From a virus: DNA of 28,410 nucleotides. Positions within the stretch are counted from its first letter, which is position 1; every line of letters starts with the position of its first letter. Below, piece after piece: positions 3,903 through 25,133 of the stretch. Made by a program: the position numbers and the translations under genes. The notes beneath the pieces were generated by a model, which saw only the letters and a program-made list of their open reading frames with translations, had not been told where the DNA came from and did not search any database. The stretch spans positions 1 through 28,410 of the IMG/VR virus record IMGVR_UViG_3300031722_000130. One strand, 5' to 3'.

Positions 3903-4444
3903 TATTTCTTCTTCGGCGTGATGCCGAGCTGCTTGTAAATATTCTGCACTGCGACTGCTTGGGCGAACGCATCTGCTAGAGCGTTGTGCGCTGACTTGTT
4001 ACTTGTTTTTGCGGAGTCATCGCCAAGATCCATAATCGTGCGCGAATCGCGAATCTGCCAGAAGTTCCAAGGACACGGTTGTTTCATCTGCTTATACAGA
4101 TTCTCCAGCATCCCGATGTCGAACAGAATACCTTGAGCCCAGATCTTATCAACACCGACCACGTATTTGTTGATCTGCGCAAGCACGTCAACTAGAGGAA
4201 GGCGATCTTCTTCGCTCATTGCTTCTTCGAAGATTGCTGGATCCTGCTTGCCCCACCATTCTAAGGTTGACTCGTCGATAGTACGACCTAATGCAGTTTG
4301 CTCGTCAACGTTGATTCGAAAATACAACGGAGTATGCGGCTCTTGCAGATTGTATGGATCAAACTTTACTGCCCCTAGCGTCAAGACCACTGCATCTGGT
4401 CCGGTACCTAGAGTTTCCATGTCGATCATAACATGCGTGCTCAT
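3902..4444 (-). CDS. dexA: DEDDh 3'-5' exonuclease, DexA-like
   Basis: A 180-residue protein with all motifs of the DEDDh exonuclease superfamily: Exo I is MIDMETLGTG with D8 and E10, Exo II is ILFDIGML with D109, and Exo III is HNALADA with H153 and D158. The opening DMETLGTGPDA matches the T4 exonuclease A / RNase-T-like branch. Such enzymes degrade single strands 3' to 5' with two metal ions; in T4, DexA is a DNA exonuclease. It could act in host-DNA recycling or end trimming. The start overlaps the clpS stop (ATGA), so it is translated with ClpS. The symbol is by similarity only. Confidence 0.85.
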   Translation of the reverse strand: MSTHVMIDMETLGTGPDAVVLTLGAVKFDPYNLQEPHTPLYFRINVDEQTALGRTIDESTLEWWGKQDPAIFEEAMSEEDRLPLVDVLAQINKYVVGVDKIWAQGILFDIGMLENLYKQMKQPCPWNFWQIRDSRTIMDLGDDSAKTSNKSAHNALADAFAQAVAVQNIYKQLGITPKKK

Positions 4445-4752
4445 AGGGTGGCCTCCAATTTTATTAAAAGTGGAAATCCGGCGTTGCGAGCCATGATTGT
4501 TGCTTCGACGCCTTTTTGCTCGGCGAGTTCGTATGGTAGAACGGCAGCAACTGCTGAGCCTTCTTCATGCACTTGCATACACAAGGCATTTGCCGAGTCT
4601 TCCGAATGATTGAAAATTGCCATAAGACTGGCTACTACGAATTCCATCGTAGTGACGTTGTCATTCATATAAATGACCGAAAACAGACTTGGCTTTGCAA
4701 GGTCAAGCTTCGCTTTGGTTTTTTCTTTAACTGAGGTGTCAGTTGATGCCAT
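4441..4752 (-). CDS. clpS: ClpS-like adaptor for ClpAP protease
   Basis: A 103-residue protein with the full ClpS core: FSVIYMNDNVTTMEFVV, a central helix with MQVHEEGSAV, then LAEQKG and a final PLLIKLE. The N-degron pocket residues of E. coli ClpS (N34, D35, M40, H66) line up with N30, D31, M36 and H62 at a constant offset of four, so substrate binding is probably intact. Bacterial ClpS brings N-end-rule substrates to ClpA. A phage copy might redirect host proteolysis; that is inference. The ribosome site AGGAACTATC and the first codons lie in a 19-base sequence repeated exactly before the fibronectin-III gene at 23256-23274. Confidence 0.9.
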   Translation of the reverse strand: MASTDTSVKEKTKAKLDLAKPSLFSVIYMNDNVTTMEFVVASLMAIFNHSEDSANALCMQVHEEGSAVAAVLPYELAEQKGVEATIMARNAGFPLLIKLEATL

Positions 4753-4771
4753 GATAGTTCCTGTATAAGTA

Positions 4772-4789
4772 AGGGGGATTTCTCCCCCT
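4772..4789 (-). terminator. Hairpin with GAAA loop between hsp20 and clpS
   Basis: On the minus strand AGGGGGA-GAAA-TCCCCCT forms a perfect 7-base-pair stem closed by a GNRA tetraloop. It lies just after the hsp20 stop and before clpS. Only a poor T tract follows (TACTTAT), so it may be a weak terminator or an mRNA end/processing element rather than a full stop signal. Confidence 0.6.
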
Positions 4790-4799
4790 AGATTAGGTG

Positions 4800-5273
4800 T
4801 TACTCGATTGATTTTTCAATCTGTGTTGCTGATCCGATAGCAATCTTTCGAGGTTTTAACTCCTCTGGGACTACTACCTCTAGGTCGATCTCTAACAGTC
4901 CGTCGGCATACTTCGCACCGAGAACAACAACGTGTTCAGCTAAGGATAGCACCTTAGTAAACGATTTGCTGCTGATGCCTTTGTAGACGTACTCTTGTTC
5001 AACACGATCTTTCTGATAACCAGAAATCGTCAACACATTGTTTTCGACTGCGATGTCGAGCTCGTTTTCCTTAAATCCTGCTACAGCTACTGATATAGTA
5101 TAGCTGGTATCGCTATGTTTCACAATATCGTGTGGCGGATATTTTTCAGAATTGGCAAGATTGCTTGCAGTGTGGGACAGACGATCAAACATTGTGTCGA
5201 AGCCGACAGATGCTCGATGTAAGTTGGCGAATAGTGTTGGTAAATCAACTGTAGATAGACGTACTGAGTTCAT
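4800..5273 (-). CDS. hsp20: Small heat-shock protein, Hsp20/IbpA family
   Basis: A 157-residue protein of IbpA-like length. The alpha-crystallin domain spans about residues 45-140: PPHDIVKHSDTSYTISVAVA, then GFKENELDIAVENNVLTISG, and the family's late strand YADGLLEIDL. The N-terminus holds LPTLFANLHRASVGFDTMFDRL, the usual IbpA-type region. It is an ATP-independent holdase chaperone that keeps unfolding proteins soluble. A late-type promoter (5338-5345) and a strong hairpin at the predicted mRNA 5' end (5304-5335) precede it, with AAGGAG before the ATG. Phage-borne Hsp20 is known from T4-like cyanophages. Confidence 0.92.
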   Translation of the reverse strand: MNSVRLSTVDLPTLFANLHRASVGFDTMFDRLSHTASNLANSEKYPPHDIVKHSDTSYTISVAVAGFKENELDIAVENNVLTISGYQKDRVEQEYVYKGISSKSFTKVLSLAEHVVVLGAKYADGLLEIDLEVVVPEELKPRKIAIGSATQIEKSIE

Positions 5274-5303
5274 GATTTTTCTCCTTTATTAAGCAAGTCA
5301 TGA

Positions 5304-5335
5304 TGTATGCAGCCCGACAATCGGCACTGCATACA
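5304..5335 (-). promoter_or_regulatory. Strong hairpin at the hsp20 mRNA 5' end
   Basis: A 9-base-pair perfect stem (TGTATGCAG with CTGCATACA) encloses an inner CCGA/TCGG stem with a three-base loop. It starts 2 bases after the late octamer, so the stem would begin at or next to the transcript 5' end. It does not include the ribosome site, which lies about 20 bases downstream. It could protect the mRNA or serve as a protein-binding operator. Confidence 0.65.
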
Positions 5336-5337
5336 CA

Positions 5338-5345
5338 TATTTATA
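5338..5345 (-). promoter_or_regulatory. T4-type late promoter, perfect TATAAATA
   Basis: The minus strand reads TATAAATA exactly, the T4 late consensus. It is 64 bases before the hsp20 ATG and is the best match among the octamers in this window. Confidence 0.8.
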
Positions 5346-5371
5346 CGCTCTTTTAGGGAGATGACAAAATA

Positions 5372-5395
5372 TTTTGGTAATCAATCTGACCAAAA
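5372..5395 (-). terminator. Putative terminator after bS21 gene
   Basis: TTTTGGT and ACCAAAA form a 7-base-pair inverted repeat around a 10-base loop, 19 bases beyond the bS21 stop codon, with AT-rich sequence on both sides (ATATTTTG follows on the minus strand). The stem is AT-rich, so the call is tentative. Confidence 0.45.
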
Positions 5396-5413
5396 ATACT
5401 AGAACCAAGACTA

Positions 5414-5659
5414 TTAGAAGAATTTCTTTGGAAGGGTATCGTTGGATACCTTCTTGAGCCAGCGTTTGCGAGCTTGAGCTGCTGCGCGTTTTCTTTTTGT
5501 GGTAGGCTTTTCATAAGCCTCACGTTCCTTGAGCTCGATGAGCAGGCCCGAGTCTTGGACCTTATTTTTGAACTTTCGAAGACCAGCTTCGAATCTACCG
5601 TCTTGAATGTAGACTGTATTGCCTGGACACATATCCGGTGATGTATTAAACGTTGCCAT
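5414..5659 (-). CDS. rpsU: Ribosomal protein bS21 homologue
   Basis: An 81-residue basic protein. Residues 15-53 match bS21: GNTVYIQDGRFEAGLRKFKN, then V..SGLLIELKEREAYEKPT, followed by the basic KRKRAAAQARKRWLKK tail. bS21 sits at the 30S platform near the mRNA exit and helps start-site selection; phage copies can enter host ribosomes. This one could bias initiation towards phage mRNAs, which is inference. The N-terminus has about 14 extra residues (MATFNTSPDMCPGN). It overlaps the upstream gene as TAATG. Confidence 0.92.
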   Translation of the reverse strand: MATFNTSPDMCPGNTVYIQDGRFEAGLRKFKNKVQDSGLLIELKEREAYEKPTTKRKRAAAQARKRWLKKVSNDTLPKKFF

Positions 5660-6042
5660 TATTTTCCTTGGGTTAAGTTGTTGACGAAATAGTCAACGGG
5701 TGATTCAATTCGGCGATTTTGTGACATCAGGAAAGTCTTCTCTCCGTAGTGATAAATCTCGCCCGCCTTTGCTGCAAGACGATCCTTGTGTGGACTGTCT
5801 TCGTTCTGCACCGTGTTGATGATTGTAGCTGATACTTTGCCCATCACCGCGTGGAGCCATTCACGGTTGTTCATCGCTACGCAATAGACGTAAACCGTGA
5901 ATACGTCTGCTGCTGTCTTCAGATAGAAAGCAACATTCTCTATTTCAGATTGTGTTGGATCTATCAATAAAACACTGAATACTCGGCCGTCAATGAAGTC
6001 GGGCGGAGTGACAATGTTTGAGCACTCTTCGATTGTTTCCAT
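5659..6042 (-). CDS. Hypothetical protein coupled to bS21
   Basis: A 127-residue protein METIEECSNIVTPPDFIDG.... The middle alternates strands and helices (VFSVLLIDPTQSEIENVAFYL, then VFTVYVYC, then VSATIINTV), suggesting an alpha/beta fold. No catalytic motif is clear. It shares a TAATG overlap with bS21, so the two are made in step; a role linked to translation is possible but untested. Confidence 0.75.
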   Translation of the reverse strand: METIEECSNIVTPPDFIDGRVFSVLLIDPTQSEIENVAFYLKTAADVFTVYVYCVAMNNREWLHAVMGKVSATIINTVQNEDSPHKDRLAAKAGEIYHYGEKTFLMSQNRRIESPVDYFVNNLTQGK

Positions 6043-6067
6043 GTTGCCTCTTGTTTGTTTTGTTAGA

Positions 6068-8353
6068 TTACTCAGGATGAGCCCCTAAATACTTTGCTAC
6101 CTGCTCTTGTTCTAAATCCGACAGATCATCTGCATCGTATTCACCAGTTGACACCTTAGCAATGAGTAATTTTATATACTCTTCCTCATAAGCATACACG
6201 TCTACGTTGGCTTTGTCAACTGAAATCCACTTAGAATCATTCCATTTGAACAACCTCGCCGGAGTGTAGTCAATACGTAAGAACATATCGCCTTTGTCTG
6301 GATTTGGAGGGAATGCAACACCAAAACTAGCAGCCCGACCTTTTGGTAATGCCGCCAAATTATCTTCCAAACGAGACATGTCTGTGTCGATTTTTTCTGG
6401 AATATGCGCGTCAGAATAACCTAACGAATGATCTGCCACCTTACGTGCCACAACACCAGACCTATGATCCTCGCTGAATACGATTGGTTCTGGTAATGAA
6501 GCAGTTGCGTCGAATACTAATTCTACTGGTGCTACAACTTCTTGAGTCTCTGGTTCTACTGGTTCTTCTAATTGAGCTTCTAACTCAGCAAACACTTCAG
6601 TTGCATCATGCCACTCAGCATCAGCAGAGTCAGCAATCTCAATTCGTTCAGCTAATACCTGCGGAAGGTCGTCTGCTGGTTCGTCAATCTCAGGTAATGG
6701 CTCCGGCACTGGTTCTACTGCCTCACCTTCGTATAATTCCCAACGATTCGCATCTAGGACTGATTGGAACTCTTCGCCTAACGGTTCTTGACTGGCGACG
6801 ATTGTATCGACGGGTGTTGTCACGGTTGCTGCTGCGAGTTGGGCGCGTAACGATTCAATTTCAGCTATGGCAGCGTCAAGCTTTTCTTGCATCTCTCGTT
6901 GCACTTGCTGAGATTTCATTGTTGAATGACGGAGTGCTGCTAATGCTCCTTCCCTCGACAGAATCTCTTCTCGAAGCTCTTTTTGCTGTGTGGTTACAGA
7001 TTCTATCTCTGATAGCACAATCTCAAGCTCGTCTTCTTTCCCCTTAGCCAACGCCTGAGCAAGCTCTAACTGAGTAGCCAAATCATCCAATAACTGCAAA
7101 TCAGTTTTTGCAGTTGCTAATTCTTGCTCGACGGTCTCTTTGTTTGTTAGCAAGGAATCGTATTCTGCTACTAGAGCTGCCAAATCGTCCTTCAGCGTCT
7201 TTTCACGACTTAACGATTCGGTTACTGTTTCCTCTAGCCCGTTAATCATAAAATGTAAATCAGTGACATGGTCTGTCATGTCTGTGACTTGCTGGATTAT
7301 CCCGCCTAATTCTTTTTCTCTTAGAGCTCGAACCTCAGTTGCTGCGGATAATTGTTTGTTTGTTTCGTCAAGGTTGATAACGGAATTTTCAGCGCAACCA
7401 TCGCATTCACTAAGCAGACGTTTTTCGAACTCTAACTCACATTGGGCACGAGTTGTTTCTACTGCTTGACTTACTAATTCTGCAATGTGCTCTTCAGTTT
7501 TGTGGGAGATTGTCTCTTTCGCTGATGTTAGCTTTGCTGCCTCTTGCACGGCCTCAATCTCTGCTTCGATCTTGTCGTGCTTCTTCTTTCGTCGATCTAA
7601 CGACGACCAATCCATGGAGGTAGTTGCTGCAAGGAGTAGAACGATTGCTAACGGATCAAAAACTGCAACGATAATCATAATCACCCAACGTACTGCCGCT
7701 TCTAAGATTGTTTCGTCGGCTTTATCGCCATAGATGACTGCTGCGATATATCGAATTGGACCAACGTCTGCTACGACTTTTCGTAACTGACTTGCTACTG
7801 GTGATCGTTGTTCTTGAAGTTTGACGATTTCTTTCTGCGCTTCGTCGATGTCTTTCTGTAATGCAGAACGTTCTTTTGCTTGTGATTTGCGCAATGCTGC
7901 TGCCTTAGTAGCGCCTGTATCTGTTGTTGATCTTGCGAGTAACTGGTCAACTGATCCGTCCATCTGCACCAATGCTTTCTTTGATGAGTCGATGTTGTCA
8001 CGTTGCGTTTTTATCTTCTCGTCGAATAACGAGACCTGGGCTTGAATGTCGCCGGATGGTACTGCTTGATCTGCGTGTCCTTTTGACAGGAATCCAAAAA
8101 TGCCCATCGAGGTGATGAACATCAGAATGACCACTGCTAAGGTAAGGTATGATTTAATTTTCCAATCTGCGCGGTGCCAATTATAGTGCAGCCAAACTAC
8201 TGTTGAAACTTTTCCTAGCTCTAATGCCGCTCCCATGATAATGATAGGGATGACTGCGGCGGAAAATATCGCGGCGAGACCGACGATGCTGAAGTATGCC
8301 GAGATGCTCGAAATAATCAAGGCGGAGAGTAGTGTGGTTAATCCTAATATCAT
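6068..8353 (-). CDS. Large membrane-anchored coiled-coil protein
   Basis: A 761-residue protein. Residues 1-50 and 69-92 are strongly hydrophobic (two to three membrane segments, including VVILMFITSMGIFGFLSKG), and another segment lies near 215-245 (WVIMIIVAVFDPLAIVLLLA). Between them (105-200) and after them (250-510) are long coiled coils rich in Glu, Lys and Gln. Residues about 530-625 are Pro/Glu/Ala-rich and probably unstructured. The C-terminal part contains GDMFLRIDYTPARLFKWNDS, a motif I associate with phage fibre proteins. From memory the N-terminal block recurs in T4-type phages of environmental bacteria; its function is unknown to me. An octamer ACTAAATA stands 4 bases before the ATG, with no clear Shine-Dalgarno sequence. 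Confidence 0.85.
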   Translation of the reverse strand: MILGLTTLLSALIISSISAYFSIVGLAAIFSAAVIPIIIMGAALELGKVSTVVWLHYNWHRADWKIKSYLTLAVVILMFITSMGIFGFLSKGHADQAVPSGDIQAQVSLFDEKIKTQRDNIDSSKKALVQMDGSVDQLLARSTTDTGATKAAALRKSQAKERSALQKDIDEAQKEIVKLQEQRSPVASQLRKVVADVGPIRYIAAVIYGDKADETILEAAVRWVIMIIVAVFDPLAIVLLLAATTSMDWSSLDRRKKKHDKIEAEIEAVQEAAKLTSAKETISHKTEEHIAELVSQAVETTRAQCELEFEKRLLSECDGCAENSVINLDETNKQLSAATEVRALREKELGGIIQQVTDMTDHVTDLHFMINGLEETVTESLSREKTLKDDLAALVAEYDSLLTNKETVEQELATAKTDLQLLDDLATQLELAQALAKGKEDELEIVLSEIESVTTQQKELREEILSREGALAALRHSTMKSQQVQREMQEKLDAAIAEIESLRAQLAAATVTTPVDTIVASQEPLGEEFQSVLDANRWELYEGEAVEPVPEPLPEIDEPADDLPQVLAERIEIADSADAEWHDATEVFAELEAQLEEPVEPETQEVVAPVELVFDATASLPEPIVFSEDHRSGVVARKVADHSLGYSDAHIPEKIDTDMSRLEDNLAALPKGRAASFGVAFPPNPDKGDMFLRIDYTPARLFKWNDSKWISVDKANVDVYAYEEEYIKLLIAKVSTGEYDADDLSDLEQEQVAKYLGAHPE

Positions 8354-19040: not shown

Positions 19041-19628
19041 TTATTTAGGGTTATACCACATGCCAGTGAATGGCATCAATAAACTACTTTCGTTTACTAG
19101 ATTTTGTTCCGGATAATGATCACGCCGTTCTAGTATCCAACAATAGCGATGCAAGTCTGGGCTACTGTCATCGGGATATACATTGATATCAGTAACCCTA
19201 GGGTCAGCAATGCGCTCTGTCTTAGTATCAAAAATCATCGGCTGCAAGCCTAATGCAGGCAGAGTCTTAGTCCATAGTTTCCTTCCGGCCCAAGTTTGCT
19301 CTAGGTCACTTTGCAGCGACTTATTCAACTTCTCTTTAACGTACTTATACAACTTACCTGCCAGCTGTTGGCCTTTATACGGGTCATACGTTGCTATATT
19401 CTTAGATTGCCAGACTTTGCCGTTAATCCTGCTACGAAAACCTGCATATGCTGCTATTTTTCTATCGTCGTCAGTTAAAATCAAAACACGATCATGCCCT
19501 TCTTCGAGATAGTTCAACATAAAATTGCGGTCAAACATCCCCATCGGATTAGACGCAATTCTATGTTGTTCAGCAAGAGAATACGGAAATTCATTGTCTC
19601 CCACCATTTCGATCTCGTTGATTTTCAT
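19041..19628 (-). CDS. GNAT-like acetyltransferase-fold protein
   Basis: A 195-residue protein. VLILTDDDRKIAAYAGFRSR and IATYDPYKGQQLAGKLYKYV have the layout of GNAT strands 2-4, with G..LA.KLY at the acetyl-CoA loop position; SLQSDLEQTWAGRKLWTKTL fits a variant seen in other phage proteins. Substrate unknown. I prefer the ATG at 19628 (MKINEIEMVGDNEF), because its opening fits the leader found on other proteins here, though AAGG is 11 bases away; an ATG at 19682 would add 18 residues. Confidence 0.65.
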   Translation of the reverse strand: MKINEIEMVGDNEFPYSLAEQHRIASNPMGMFDRNFMLNYLEEGHDRVLILTDDDRKIAAYAGFRSRINGKVWQSKNIATYDPYKGQQLAGKLYKYVKEKLNKSLQSDLEQTWAGRKLWTKTLPALGLQPMIFDTKTERIADPRVTDINVYPDDSSPDLHRYCWILERRDHYPEQNLVNESSLLMPFTGMWYNPK

Positions 19629-19679
19629 TTTAGATATAACCTTAAATTCAGTCTTAACCACACTATCCGCCCCCACAAG

Positions 19680-19693
19680 CATAAATACTTATG
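19680..19693. promoter_or_regulatory. Near-palindromic late promoter between divergent genes
   Basis: CATAAATACTTATG is almost its own reverse complement. The plus strand gives CATAAATA (7 of 8 to the T4 consensus), 22 bases before the endonuclease ATG at 19710. The minus strand gives CATAAGTA, 51 bases before the GNAT-like start. It may work in both directions. Confidence 0.6.
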
Positions 19694-19709
19694 CGAACAA
19701 GGATATTAT

Positions 19710-20534
19710 ATGAATATTTATCAGCATACTAACCCCGATAAAAATAACACGCCATTCACTTACTTGATAGGCTGGTCAGCCCTCAATAAATGGTACTACG
19801 GTTGTCGGTATCGCAAAGGATGCCATCCTACAGACTTGTGGACGACTTACTTCACAAGCTCCGACGAAGTAAAACAATTTCGTAGAGAGCACGGTGAGCC
19901 AGATGTTATTCAGGTTCGACATGTTTTCTCGGCTAATCAGCAAGCCAAACTATGGGAGTCACGAGTCCAAACTGCTATCCCTCGCACATCAAGAATCCAT
20001 TGGCTCAACAAAAAGTTTGGTGACACGTTTGCTAATGTTGTAGATGGGTTTACTGGCAAAAAGAAATCTGCAAAATCTAAACTCCGCCAAAAAGAAACTA
20101 TGATGCAAAAGTACGGCGTAGAAAACGGCGGCCAAACTGAAAAATCTAAAGCTACTGCTAAGGCACGAATGTTGTCACCAGCAAATCCGTCATACCACCA
20201 AACCAACGCGACGAAGAAAAAAATATCAGAAACTAACCTAACCAACATGGCGAATATGACTGCCGATGAACGGTCAGCTAAGTTCGGATCTTGCGGTGAA
20301 AAGAATCCGTTCTTTGGCAAGCATCATTCTCCTGAACTACTCGCAGAGATGCAAATCAAAAAATCAGCCGCCTGGGCTAAAAATAAAAGCTGTTGGATGC
20401 ATACCCCGACAGGAGAGAATATTCGCGTTCATTCTATAGACGTTGAAACTGCTATAGCATCAGGATGTAAAAAGGGGTATGCTCCGGGAACACACCCCAA
20501 TAATACACGAAACTACTCTAAAAAATCAATCTAA
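19710..20534 (+). CDS. Free-standing homing endonuclease (GIY-YIG-like with NUMOD3)
   Basis: A 274-residue protein. TYLIGWSALNKWYYGCRYRK (about 17-36) is a GIY-YIG-type start, and a Glu in AKLWESRVQ fits the catalytic position. A basic linker follows, then NUMOD3-type DNA-binding modules (EKNPFFGKHHSPE, and the similar ANPSYHQT) and a final TPTGENIRVHSIDVE module. It probably cuts an intron-less or homing-free allele to spread itself. The ATG at 19710 has AAGGA upstream; the longer frame from 19494 crosses the opposite-strand gene and the promoter. Its 3' end overlaps the convergent reductase gene by 9 bases. Confidence 0.82.
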   Translation: MNIYQHTNPDKNNTPFTYLIGWSALNKWYYGCRYRKGCHPTDLWTTYFTSSDEVKQFRREHGEPDVIQVRHVFSANQQAKLWESRVQTAIPRTSRIHWLNKKFGDTFANVVDGFTGKKKSAKSKLRQKETMMQKYGVENGGQTEKSKATAKARMLSPANPSYHQTNATKKKISETNLTNMANMTADERSAKFGSCGEKNPFFGKHHSPELLAEMQIKKSAAWAKNKSCWMHTPTGENIRVHSIDVETAIASGCKKGYAPGTHPNNTRNYSKKSI

Positions 20535-22512: not shown

Positions 22513-22962
22513 TTAATATTTCGATAGGTGTAAATCTTCTGAGGAATAGACCTTGTCTATTGATACATCTTTACTAAGCTGCTCATTACTTATGACGGTA
22601 TCGAAGATGTAATTCAGCACATATTTTCCTCGATCAATCAACACTAGATTGTAATTTTGGGCAGTAGAACTGTCCACTATTGTCTCTAGTAAAAATTCGT
22701 GTTGCTTTCCGTGACTTGATAGAGCTAAGGTATAGAACATTCCTAAGGCTTTAGCTAAATCGTCAAATTTTCCGTCATCAATAAGTTCCCATGGCGTAGG
22801 CCAATCTTCTGGCGATTGCCGGTCGAGGTAATGATTAACGAATGGGGCATAACTCCACAAATGGGCAGTTTGTTGTACTGCCTCTTCGAACGGAAGAGTC
22901 CCGATTCGGGTTCGAAACTCTTTCCATGCAACAAGTCTTTCGTCAGACTTCAAATTCCACAT
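22513..22962 (-). CDS. Conserved-looking T4-type phage protein (149 aa)
   Basis: A 149-residue protein starting MWNLKSDERLVAWKEFRTRI. From memory its hallmarks (W..FR..IG.LP...A, a W..AP....YL segment, then WPTPWELIDDGKFDDLAKAL and a GM.YTLAL segment) recur in T4-type phages as a protein of unknown function. No catalytic motif is clear. AGAGAGAAG stands before the ATG. It lies between the fibronectin-III gene and the reductase. Confidence 0.78.
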   Translation of the reverse strand: MWNLKSDERLVAWKEFRTRIGTLPFEEAVQQTAHLWSYAPFVNHYLDRQSPEDWPTPWELIDDGKFDDLAKALGMFYTLALSSHGKQHEFLLETIVDSSTAQNYNLVLIDRGKYVLNYIFDTVISNEQLSKDVSIDKVYSSEDLHLSKY

Positions 22963-23030: not shown

Positions 23031-23264
23031 TTACGGTACAAGTAGCACGTTTGATGGTGCTGATGGTGCGCTCTCACCAATCGCGTTGATTGCTGTGACT
23101 GTGAAAGTGTATGAACTGCCGTTCCCCTGCAACCCGTCAACTAAGATCGGAGATGCGTTTCCTACAAACACCGTAGTGACTGGGTCAGTTGCGACGTGAT
23201 ATGACGTGATTGGTGACCCACCGTTGTTTAACGGTGCGTCAAAAGTGATAAGAGCTGATGCCAT
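23031..23264 (-). CDS. Fibronectin type III module, lacking its first strand
   Basis: A 77-residue protein that is nearly one Fn3 domain: ITFDAPLNNGGSPITSYHVA, then SYTFTVTAINAIGESAPSAP and SNVLLVP. The domain's usual first strand (P.AP.NV.A) is missing here, but sits at the very end of the tailspike gene 15 bases upstream, in the same reading frame. AAAGGAACTATC precedes the ATG. Fn3 modules decorate phage virions and may bind carbohydrate surfaces. The 19 bases around its start are identical to the clpS start region. Confidence 0.8.
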   Translation of the reverse strand: MASALITFDAPLNNGGSPITSYHVATDPVTTVFVGNASPILVDGLQGNGSSYTFTVTAINAIGESAPSAPSNVLLVP

Positions 23265-23279
23265 GATAGTTCCTTTAAA

Positions 23280-25133
23280 TTAAGCCAACGATGCGACAAC
23301 GTTAGTTGGTGCATCTGGTACTTCTAATAGTGATGCGACAACGTTAGTTGGTGCATCTGATACGGTGCTAACCAAAGTAGCAACAACATTTTGCGGCGAA
23401 GAAGGTGCACTAATAATCAATGCCGCTGCTACGTTAGTTGGAGCGTCTGGTACTGAGTCAAGTAATCTTGCTGGTGCAGTGCTTCCGATTAATGTTCTAC
23501 TTGATAACGTGAGTATAGAGTTAAATCTCTCAACTGACGAGGTGTAGGTTAGTTCAACTGTATTGTTATTTAGCGTTGGGACAAGGCTGATCCCAAGATC
23601 GTCAGTCTCAACATAATCATCGGAAAACGTGGTTTCTCCAGCGATCGGAGTGATGTGTAATGTTCCGATGCGCTTCTTGCTCCCAGTTAGGGAATTACGA
23701 ACTACGGTGTATTCAATGATAGTCGGATAATCCTCAAAGCCAATCACCCCCACTGTAATCGGAGTCAACACCCCATCTGCTAAGACAGTGTCACTACCGC
23801 CTGCCGTATGCAGTTTGCCTAGTATGGTACGCCCATCTGACAGAGTCGCAAAACTTGCCTTACCATTGAGATCAATTGCAGGAATTGCTGAGCCAGACGA
23901 ACGAGCAAACGTATCGCCGAAGCTATAGCAGTTGTCGCCGTTGAAGTAAATTACAGATGAATCCGGAGTTGCTTCGGTCTCGGGTAAAACAGGAATACGC
24001 TGACCGTTACCAACATTCTTGAAGGTGTTAAACGCGCTAACGAGGTGCGATACTGGGAATCCGTTAGGGCCGCCGCCGACAATGCCTTCCTTCGCTACCC
24101 GGTCAAACATCGAATGCGATATTTTGATCTCGGACGGTGATGGTGGATCAATGTTCATCATCCCAACTGCTACTCCTTGGTACAGGTCAAAGAACAATCC
24201 ACTAATAACGTTGACGTTGGAGGTCGAATCCTTTGTAAATATGCCGTATGTTTTATCTGCAAAGTCGCAGTTAGTAAGATAGATGTTGGCTGGAGGTGTG
24301 ACGAAGCCCGGTACTGTCGGAGTTACCTTACTATATTTGATCCTAAGGCTTGCAGTCGGAGCAACAGGCAGTAGCGTCGGCGGTGGTAATGTAGGATTAG
24401 GGTCACCTTGCATTCTCACGCGATTAAACCACACATCCACGGTCGCATCTAACACAATCACATCATTGCCGGTGAGATTCAAAAAGGTGATGCCGTCGAT
24501 TTCGATATTGCCAGGGGCAACTACAGATAATCCCAGTTCTGTCATTTTCGCCATATCAGGCGACCCGGCAGCGCATGGTTGCCCTGCGTCAGTTTGAATA
24601 ATGAATGTTGAATTTTTTCCGTCGCCTTTGAGCTTGACGTAAGGCAGCAAACGAATGTAGTCGCCGGATAACTTGTAGGTCCCTGCTGGTACATATAACG
24701 TTCGACGCACCGCAGGAGTGTCTTTAACTTTTGAGGCTTTGTATAGTTGTTCGATTGCGCGATTGAATGAGCCTACAGAGTTATACACTCCGTTCCCCAT
24801 AGACGTGGTACCAAAGTCACGAATATTAGCGAAGTCGTCGAACTTATCTTGCATTGAACGAGTAACATCTGTTGATGCCGATTCACCCGTTTGCACTTCA
24901 TACCCGCCAAGCAATCCTTTGAAGGTGTATAAGTTATTTAGGCTGAGAACAGCACTGTGAGCGGTCAAGATCTCAGTGTTTCCTAACTCTGGTGCACCTT
25001 CTTCGTGAGTGCCGTTACCAATGAACAACCTACGTTGATCTATCGACCAGCCAAGCTCTGCGCTGGCTAGTGATTCCGGTAAGTCTTCCTGTAGGCCTCG
25101 TCGTTGTTGTATGCGCGATATCTGCAAAATCAT
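23280..25133 (-). CDS. Tailspike with pectate-lyase-type beta-helix
   Basis: A 617-residue protein. Residues 5-45 (QQRRGLQEDLPESLASAELG, then RRLFIGNGT) match the N-terminal attachment module of many phage fibres and tailspikes. From about 98, FANIRDFGTTSMGNG and RRTLYVPAGTYKLSGDYIRL mark a Pectate_lyase_3-type right-handed beta-helix running to about 450. The region 450-558 may be a C-terminal beta domain. The last 59 residues are four short repeats of [VA]P[DS][AS]P.NV.A. A capsule- or polysaccharide-degrading role is typical of such spikes; the substrate cannot be told. A late-type octamer lies 26 bases upstream and AAAGGAATAC is the ribosome site. Confidence 0.87.
   Translation of the reverse strand: MILQISRIQQRRGLQEDLPESLASAELGWSIDQRRLFIGNGTHEEGAPELGNTEILTAHSAVLSLNNLYTFKGLLGGYEVQTGESASTDVTRSMQDKFDDFANIRDFGTTSMGNGVYNSVGSFNRAIEQLYKASKVKDTPAVRRTLYVPAGTYKLSGDYIRLLPYVKLKGDGKNSTFIIQTDAGQPCAAGSPDMAKMTELGLSVVAPGNIEIDGITFLNLTGNDVIVLDATVDVWFNRVRMQGDPNPTLPPPTLLPVAPTASLRIKYSKVTPTVPGFVTPPANIYLTNCDFADKTYGIFTKDSTSNVNVISGLFFDLYQGVAVGMMNIDPPSPSEIKISHSMFDRVAKEGIVGGGPNGFPVSHLVSAFNTFKNVGNGQRIPVLPETEATPDSSVIYFNGDNCYSFGDTFARSSGSAIPAIDLNGKASFATLSDGRTILGKLHTAGGSDTVLADGVLTPITVGVIGFEDYPTIIEYTVVRNSLTGSKKRIGTLHITPIAGETTFSDDYVETDDLGISLVPTLNNNTVELTYTSSVERFNSILTLSSRTLIGSTAPARLLDSVPDAPTNVAAALIISAPSSPQNVVATLVSTVSDAPTNVVASLLEVPDAPTNVVASLA
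23290..23359 (-). repeat. Direct repeats at the 3' end of the tailspike gene
   Basis: A 28-base sequence beginning gatgcgacaacgttagttgg occurs twice without change (23290-23317 and 23332-23359), with a 42-base period. A diverged copy lies near 23420-23447 and a weaker one between. The period is 14 codons, so the repeats encode SDAPTNVVASL-type units and could expand or shrink by slippage or recombination without a frameshift. Confidence 0.85.

Follow-up and report, generated by a model that had tools for sequence, protein, structure and literature searches.

A fibronectin type III domain encoded in two parts by a phage tailspike gene and its neighbour, probably rejoined by donor-strand complementation

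The window, by which we mean the whole stretch of DNA analysed here, is a 28.4-kb phage contig (28,410 nucleotides, IMG/VR virus record IMGVR_UViG_3300031722_000130). Its minus strand carries a tailspike gene, followed by a small gene encoding 77 amino acids and then by a gene for a 149-aa protein (Table 1). The tailspike matched the Pfam family PF12708 above the cutoff, and its match with PF18454 (Mtd_N) stayed below that family's own cutoff. The C-terminal end of the tailspike ORF reads ...DSVPDAPTNVAAALIISAPSSPQNVVATLVSTVSDAPTNVVASLLEVPDAPTNVVASLA, then TAA. This tail contains four copies of the 13-residue A strand of a fibronectin type III (Fn3) domain, placed at a spacing of 14-15 residues, and a donor peptide of the window reads VPDAPTNVVASLA. 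Such A strands are called donors below, and Fn3 bodies that lack the A strand are called acceptors.

Table 1. Features of the tailspike locus in the window.
Feature	Position	Strand	Basis or remark
Tailspike gene, 617 aa	23280..25133	(-)	Mtd-like N-terminus, pectate-lyase-type beta helix, donor tail from ~aa 560
Donor A strand 1, aa 560-572, SVPDAPTNVAAAL	23418..23456	(-)	A-strand matrix
Donor A strand 2, aa 575-587, SAPSSPQNVVATL	23373..23411	(-)	A-strand matrix
Donor A strand 3, aa 590-602, TVSDAPTNVVASL	23328..23366	(-)	A-strand matrix
Donor A strand 4, aa 604-616, EVPDAPTNVVASL	23286..23324	(-)	A-strand matrix; strand placed in the acceptor by the AlphaFold2 model
Junction, TAA stop and 15 nt with AAAGGA ribosome site, TAATTTAAAGGAACTATC	23265..23282	(-)	ORF and sequence reading
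Acceptor gene, 77 aa, Fn3 body of strands B-G, A strand missing	23031..23264	(-)	Pfam fn3 profile
Next gene, 149-aa protein	22513..22962	(-)	Syntenic marker for spike relatives with or without the Fn3 module

To recognize A strands, a position matrix was derived from unrelated phage contigs, using the A strands of their intact Fn3 domains. The four donor copies of the spike were its top four sites among all ORFs of the window, with scores of 16.3-24.7 bits, and the next best site had 11.5 bits. In an 11-residue form of the matrix, a score of at least 15 bits occurs at about 2.5e-6 per random position, and 20 bits was never reached in 2 million positions. Donors 3 and 4 are nearly identical at the DNA level (23286-23366), which points to a recent duplication, while copies 1 and 2 have diverged. 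The donor number may thus change through tandem duplication, which would alter the valency of the spike.

The 77-aa protein scored 32.4 bits against the Pfam fn3 profile (PF00041, cutoff 25), and the match covered profile positions 15-82 of 84. Since the match begins only at position 15, strand A is missing from this protein, and no A motif precedes strand B in the acceptor frame. The absent strand sits on the upstream protein, the spike. The original prediction that one Fn3 domain is split over two adjacent genes was therefore confirmed by the A-strand matrix on the spike tail and the Pfam profile on the acceptor. It had also described the two ORFs as sharing one frame, separated by one TAA and 15 bases with a ribosome site, and the sequence agrees with this (15-nt spacer, TTTAAAGGAACTATC). 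The feature does lie at the proposed position of 23031-23450, apart from two small corrections: its strand is the minus strand, and the first donor copy extends slightly past 23450, to 23456. Neither the acceptor nor the donors of the window contain Lys or Cys, so an isopeptide or disulphide lock is impossible there.

The structure of the two parts was modelled with AlphaFold2 as one chain, consisting of the window donor tail and the acceptor with the TAA read as Gln, on a 32-row alignment that included intact Fn3 domains. The block-mean pLDDT was 87-98 from donor 4 to the end, and donor 4 was predicted to pair as strand A of a complete Fn3 domain. Donors 1 and 2 (pLDDT 56-60) and donor 3 (58-73) were all unstructured in the model. 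A Foldseek search with this model returned Fn3 domains, those of titin among them, with matches about 100 columns long. The model shows the compatibility of the two parts rather than their binding, because fusing them into one chain and aligning them with intact domains both favour such an outcome.

A similar arrangement was present in L002 and L003, which are two assemblies whose DNA is the same over 4991-8000. Their spike is 51% identical to the window spike over its length, and its tail has three A strands. The gene order in L003 is spike, ORF1, ORF2 and then the 149-aa gene, which is 60% identical to that of the window. ORF1 (96 aa) consists of Fn3 strands B-G and, at the C-terminal end, a new A strand (ADVPGAPTNVVAV, then stop), and ORF2 (79 aa) consists of Fn3 strands B-G without an A strand. 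When ORF1 was modelled alone with AlphaFold2, the body had confidence near 80 with no residue reaching 90, and the C-terminal donor (about 44) formed no strand. It means that, according to the model, ORF1 does not close on itself. With the 149-aa gene as marker, three further spike relatives (L029, L032 and L033) were found. Their spikes end with the motif that otherwise leads into the donors (...SSRTLL, ...ASRTLT and ...IKTLYQ, each followed by the stop), and the 149-aa gene comes directly next. Both the donors and the acceptor are missing from these three loci, so donors and acceptors are present together or absent together. On the 166-kb L032 contig there was no acceptor or Fn3 match, and no orphan A strand was flagged. 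A named phage collection gave no close relative when it was queried with the window acceptor and spike, and the L003 acceptor found only ordinary Fn3 domains there.

The same split was found in other phages by DNA patterns. The pattern of an acceptor start led to L052, a 139-kb contig, and the pattern of an A strand followed by a stop led to L061, an 18-kb contig. Other matches of the acceptor-start pattern were intact domains with an ATG out of frame and were rejected. L052 and L061 each have a gene of the ORF1 type, an acceptor with a C-terminal donor, and then a further acceptor, which in L061 is the N-terminus of a 1518-aa protein matching virion structural and tail fibre families. The gene immediately upstream of the first acceptor lacks a terminal donor in both contigs. 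The scheme requires a donor elsewhere in such a case, and donors were located in both. In L052 the upstream 510-aa tail protein carries an extra internal A strand ahead of a complete Fn3 domain. On the contig of L061, a 226-aa protein about 5.5 kb off (L158:10224-10904, minus strand) holds a lone A strand (TVPSAPTNVVATLL, 28.7 bits) that no Fn3 body follows; this internal donor was seen in a single contig. The 226-aa protein has repeated LNIGLPSISAG-type units, its A strand is near-perfect, and PHROGs gave no known family for it.

In L004, an unrelated contig and likewise the single contig with its type of split, a 136-aa protein (4018-4431) has an A strand at its end, and its gene overlaps by ATGA with the next one (4428-7049), which sets in at strand B and encodes five Fn3 domains. 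Its relative in Alcaligenes phage QDWS535 is a separate gene that lacks the donor. L004 fits the scheme, yet a frameshift or sequencing error is possible, and we regard it as supporting only and outside the core evidence.

Of the 153 distinct Fn3 domains that this subfamily has in the fetched phage loci, 144 are preceded in frame by their A strand. The nine others comprise seven gene-initial acceptors and two real domains with a longer A-B loop. Five of the seven gene-initial acceptors (six of eight when the window is included) lie directly downstream of a gene that ends in a donor. In 120 acceptor-free loci (1.29 Mb) no convincing orphan A strand was found, and 134 matrix matches there belong to Fn3 domains. 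Eight orphans flagged in these loci turned out on inspection to be spurious short or antisense frames or, in L014, a domain with a long loop. For the pattern of an A strand followed by a stop, all four hits in viral contigs were genuine; they come from three distinct phages, with one phage present as two assemblies. Its 11 hits in 257 Gb of genomes were all due to chance. The acceptors had pN of 0.13-0.37 and pS of 0.62-0.84, and the donor means were 0.25 and 0.67, respectively, with silent sites so near saturation that pN/pS is only a rough guide.

The Fn3 domain is thus encoded across two chains, with donors multiplied, in several phages. We consider it probable, at about 80%, that donor-strand complementation between chains adds Fn3 domains or whole fibres to the tail non-covalently. 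In both the sequences and the fused-chain model, one protein is short of one strand and its partner offers the matching strand. The C-terminal tail of the spike would present four A strands as donors, and the downstream gene would make a separately translated Fn3 acceptor short of that strand. On taking up a donor strand of the spike, the acceptor would complete its beta sandwich, and the Fn3 domain would be held non-covalently at the spike tip. The capacity could be up to four acceptors per chain and twelve per spike trimer. By our own estimate, the donor spacing of 14-15 residues (about 45-50 A when extended) suffices to line up Fn3 bodies of about 35-40 A side by side. Relay subunits, in which an acceptor has its own C-terminal donor as in the relatives, could chain acceptors, and an acceptor at the N-terminus of a large tail fibre would let the fibre hook on likewise. 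The surplus of donors on the spike, four for one acceptor gene, is unexplained except by valency or slippage. From all this we infer binding of the parts on the virion, their stoichiometry and a benefit of the added domains for adsorption. Strand complementation had been proposed in the original prediction, and it is now strongly supported by its recurrence in three or four other phages, by the joint absence of both parts in relatives, by orphan donors that occur only with acceptors and by the models.

Another reading, which the original prediction had offered as rare readthrough, is that stop-codon readthrough or frameshifting yields a small share of longer spikes to which the Fn3 domain is covalently joined, like the frameshifting in some phage tail proteins. 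The shared frame and the single TAA with 15 nt in the window would suit it, four of the five junctions are in frame (window, L003, L052 and L061), a -1 fusion at the ATGA overlap of L004 would yield a domain of normal length, and programmed frameshifting is known to add phage Ig-like domains (PMC9022992). However, the L003 spike ends with TAG and its acceptor is out of frame behind a 44-nt spacer, and there are two in-frame stops at the ORF1-ORF2 junctions of L003 (TAA..TAA), L052 (TAA..TAA) and L061 (TAATAG), so neither the frame relation nor a single leaky stop is conserved in the relatives. Most acceptors also have their own AAGGA-type ribosome site, including the first acceptors of the window, L003, L052 and L061, and the four donor copies of the spike would serve no purpose. 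We regard this reading as very improbable, and the in-frame junctions, somewhat commoner than chance, are the expected remnant of a split tandem array. It is very unlikely that the pieces are a decayed or rearranged Fn3 array, broken by mutation and without joint function. A deletion can leave adjacent domain fragments, and the recent duplication of donors 3 and 4 could be read in this way, but the cut point is identical in unrelated contexts, no ribosome site is damaged, and some relatives have neither donors nor acceptor. The proteins are also kept although silent sites are nearly saturated, which counts against decay. The broken domain of the original prediction is probably the wrong picture, given this conservation at the protein level and donors that are multiplied and reused both internally and C-terminally.

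The small protein could also be a stand-alone Fn3 domain acting by itself, with the spike repeats as an unrelated C-terminal tail. An Fn3 domain without the A strand might fold alone, and the modelled body of L003 ORF1 is Fn3-like even without it. Its confidence was nevertheless below that of the donor-completed window domain, the match of the spike repeats is specific to A strands, and orphan A strands are confined to contigs with acceptors; we consider this reading very unlikely. Hardly any credence is given to self-completing circular permutants, for which it speaks that ORF1 of L003, L052 and L061 holds all seven strands in permuted order. The linker between strand G and the donor is only about 3-5 residues, the same as in tandem arrays, whose A strand at that place is part of the domain that follows, and the open form of L003 ORF1 in the model, with its donor unfolded, is what such a linker leads one to expect. 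The window acceptor has no such tail at all.

Donor-strand assembly has been described for bacterial pili and for a small number of other fibres. Neighbouring subunits of uromodulin are linked by beta-strand donation, and the system differs from the phage case in its eukaryotic ZP module and proteolytic activation. The uromodulin filament has a unique assembly mechanism (PMC7486124). In chaperone-usher pili, the adjacent chain supplies the strand that an Ig-type subunit is short of (PMC10673952, PMC4654587), and the phage system would share with them strand donation between chains and subunit chains with a capping or anchoring end subunit. The pili, however, lack strand G, take the donor from an N-terminal extension and need a periplasmic chaperone and usher, whereas the phage case concerns strand A, a C-terminal or internal donor, Fn3 domains and tail parts; no chaperone or usher genes were seen by eye among the window ORFs. 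The TasA fibres of Bacillus subtilis (PMC9674648) are alike in assembly by donor-strand exchange and differ in fold and in their role as biofilm matrix fibre. SpyTag/SpyCatcher (PMC12384687) likewise divides an Ig-like domain into a short strand and a larger remainder, which find one another, with the same idea of an attachment clip. It is a man-made split of CnaB2 locked by an isopeptide bond between Lys and Asn/Asp, whereas the phage split is natural and cannot be linked through Lys in the window; L003 ORF1 has no Lys either. The phage pair would work in the manner of donor-strand exchange and as a non-covalent counterpart of SpyTag/SpyCatcher, while it belongs to neither kind of system. Known Ig-like and Fn3 decorations of phages, such as gp17.1* of SPP1 (PMC9022992), place Fn3 domains on tail proteins covalently, in frame or by frameshift, whereas two chains are involved here. 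We found no case of donor-strand assembly in phage tails or with Fn3 domains in the open-access literature.

If the complementation is true, it accounts for the way in which some phages attach receptor-binding modules to their tails with no gene fusion, and it provides a natural protein clip free of cysteine and lysine, with a 13-residue tag and a 77-residue catcher. We see an even chance that it represents a general, chaperone-free way of attaching phage tail parts, with bases of 1-4 donors, chainable relays, and terminal subunits or receptor-binding fibres led by an acceptor, in which the donor number could tune how many domains are displayed. It is also a warning for annotation, because a short "orphan" Fn3 gene and the proline-rich repeats of a tail protein may together make up one domain.

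Some other features were noticed in these loci. A ribonucleotide reductase gene of L032 (L032:6531-8201) is apparently broken by an intein-like stretch (TIKPSGCRTIESSIKTTAGNQTMVELMALAGYDIDDYL) that its relatives do not have. ORFs resembling homing endonucleases (GIY-YIG-like by eye) were seen in the window (19494-20534, plus strand), in L003 (3550-4305) and in L029 (860-1642 and 2311-3162); in several relatives they lie near the spike or ribonucleotide reductase genes, at differing positions. The 149-aa protein, for which 13 viral loci were found, is kept beside the spike despite the changing spike and Fn3 content.
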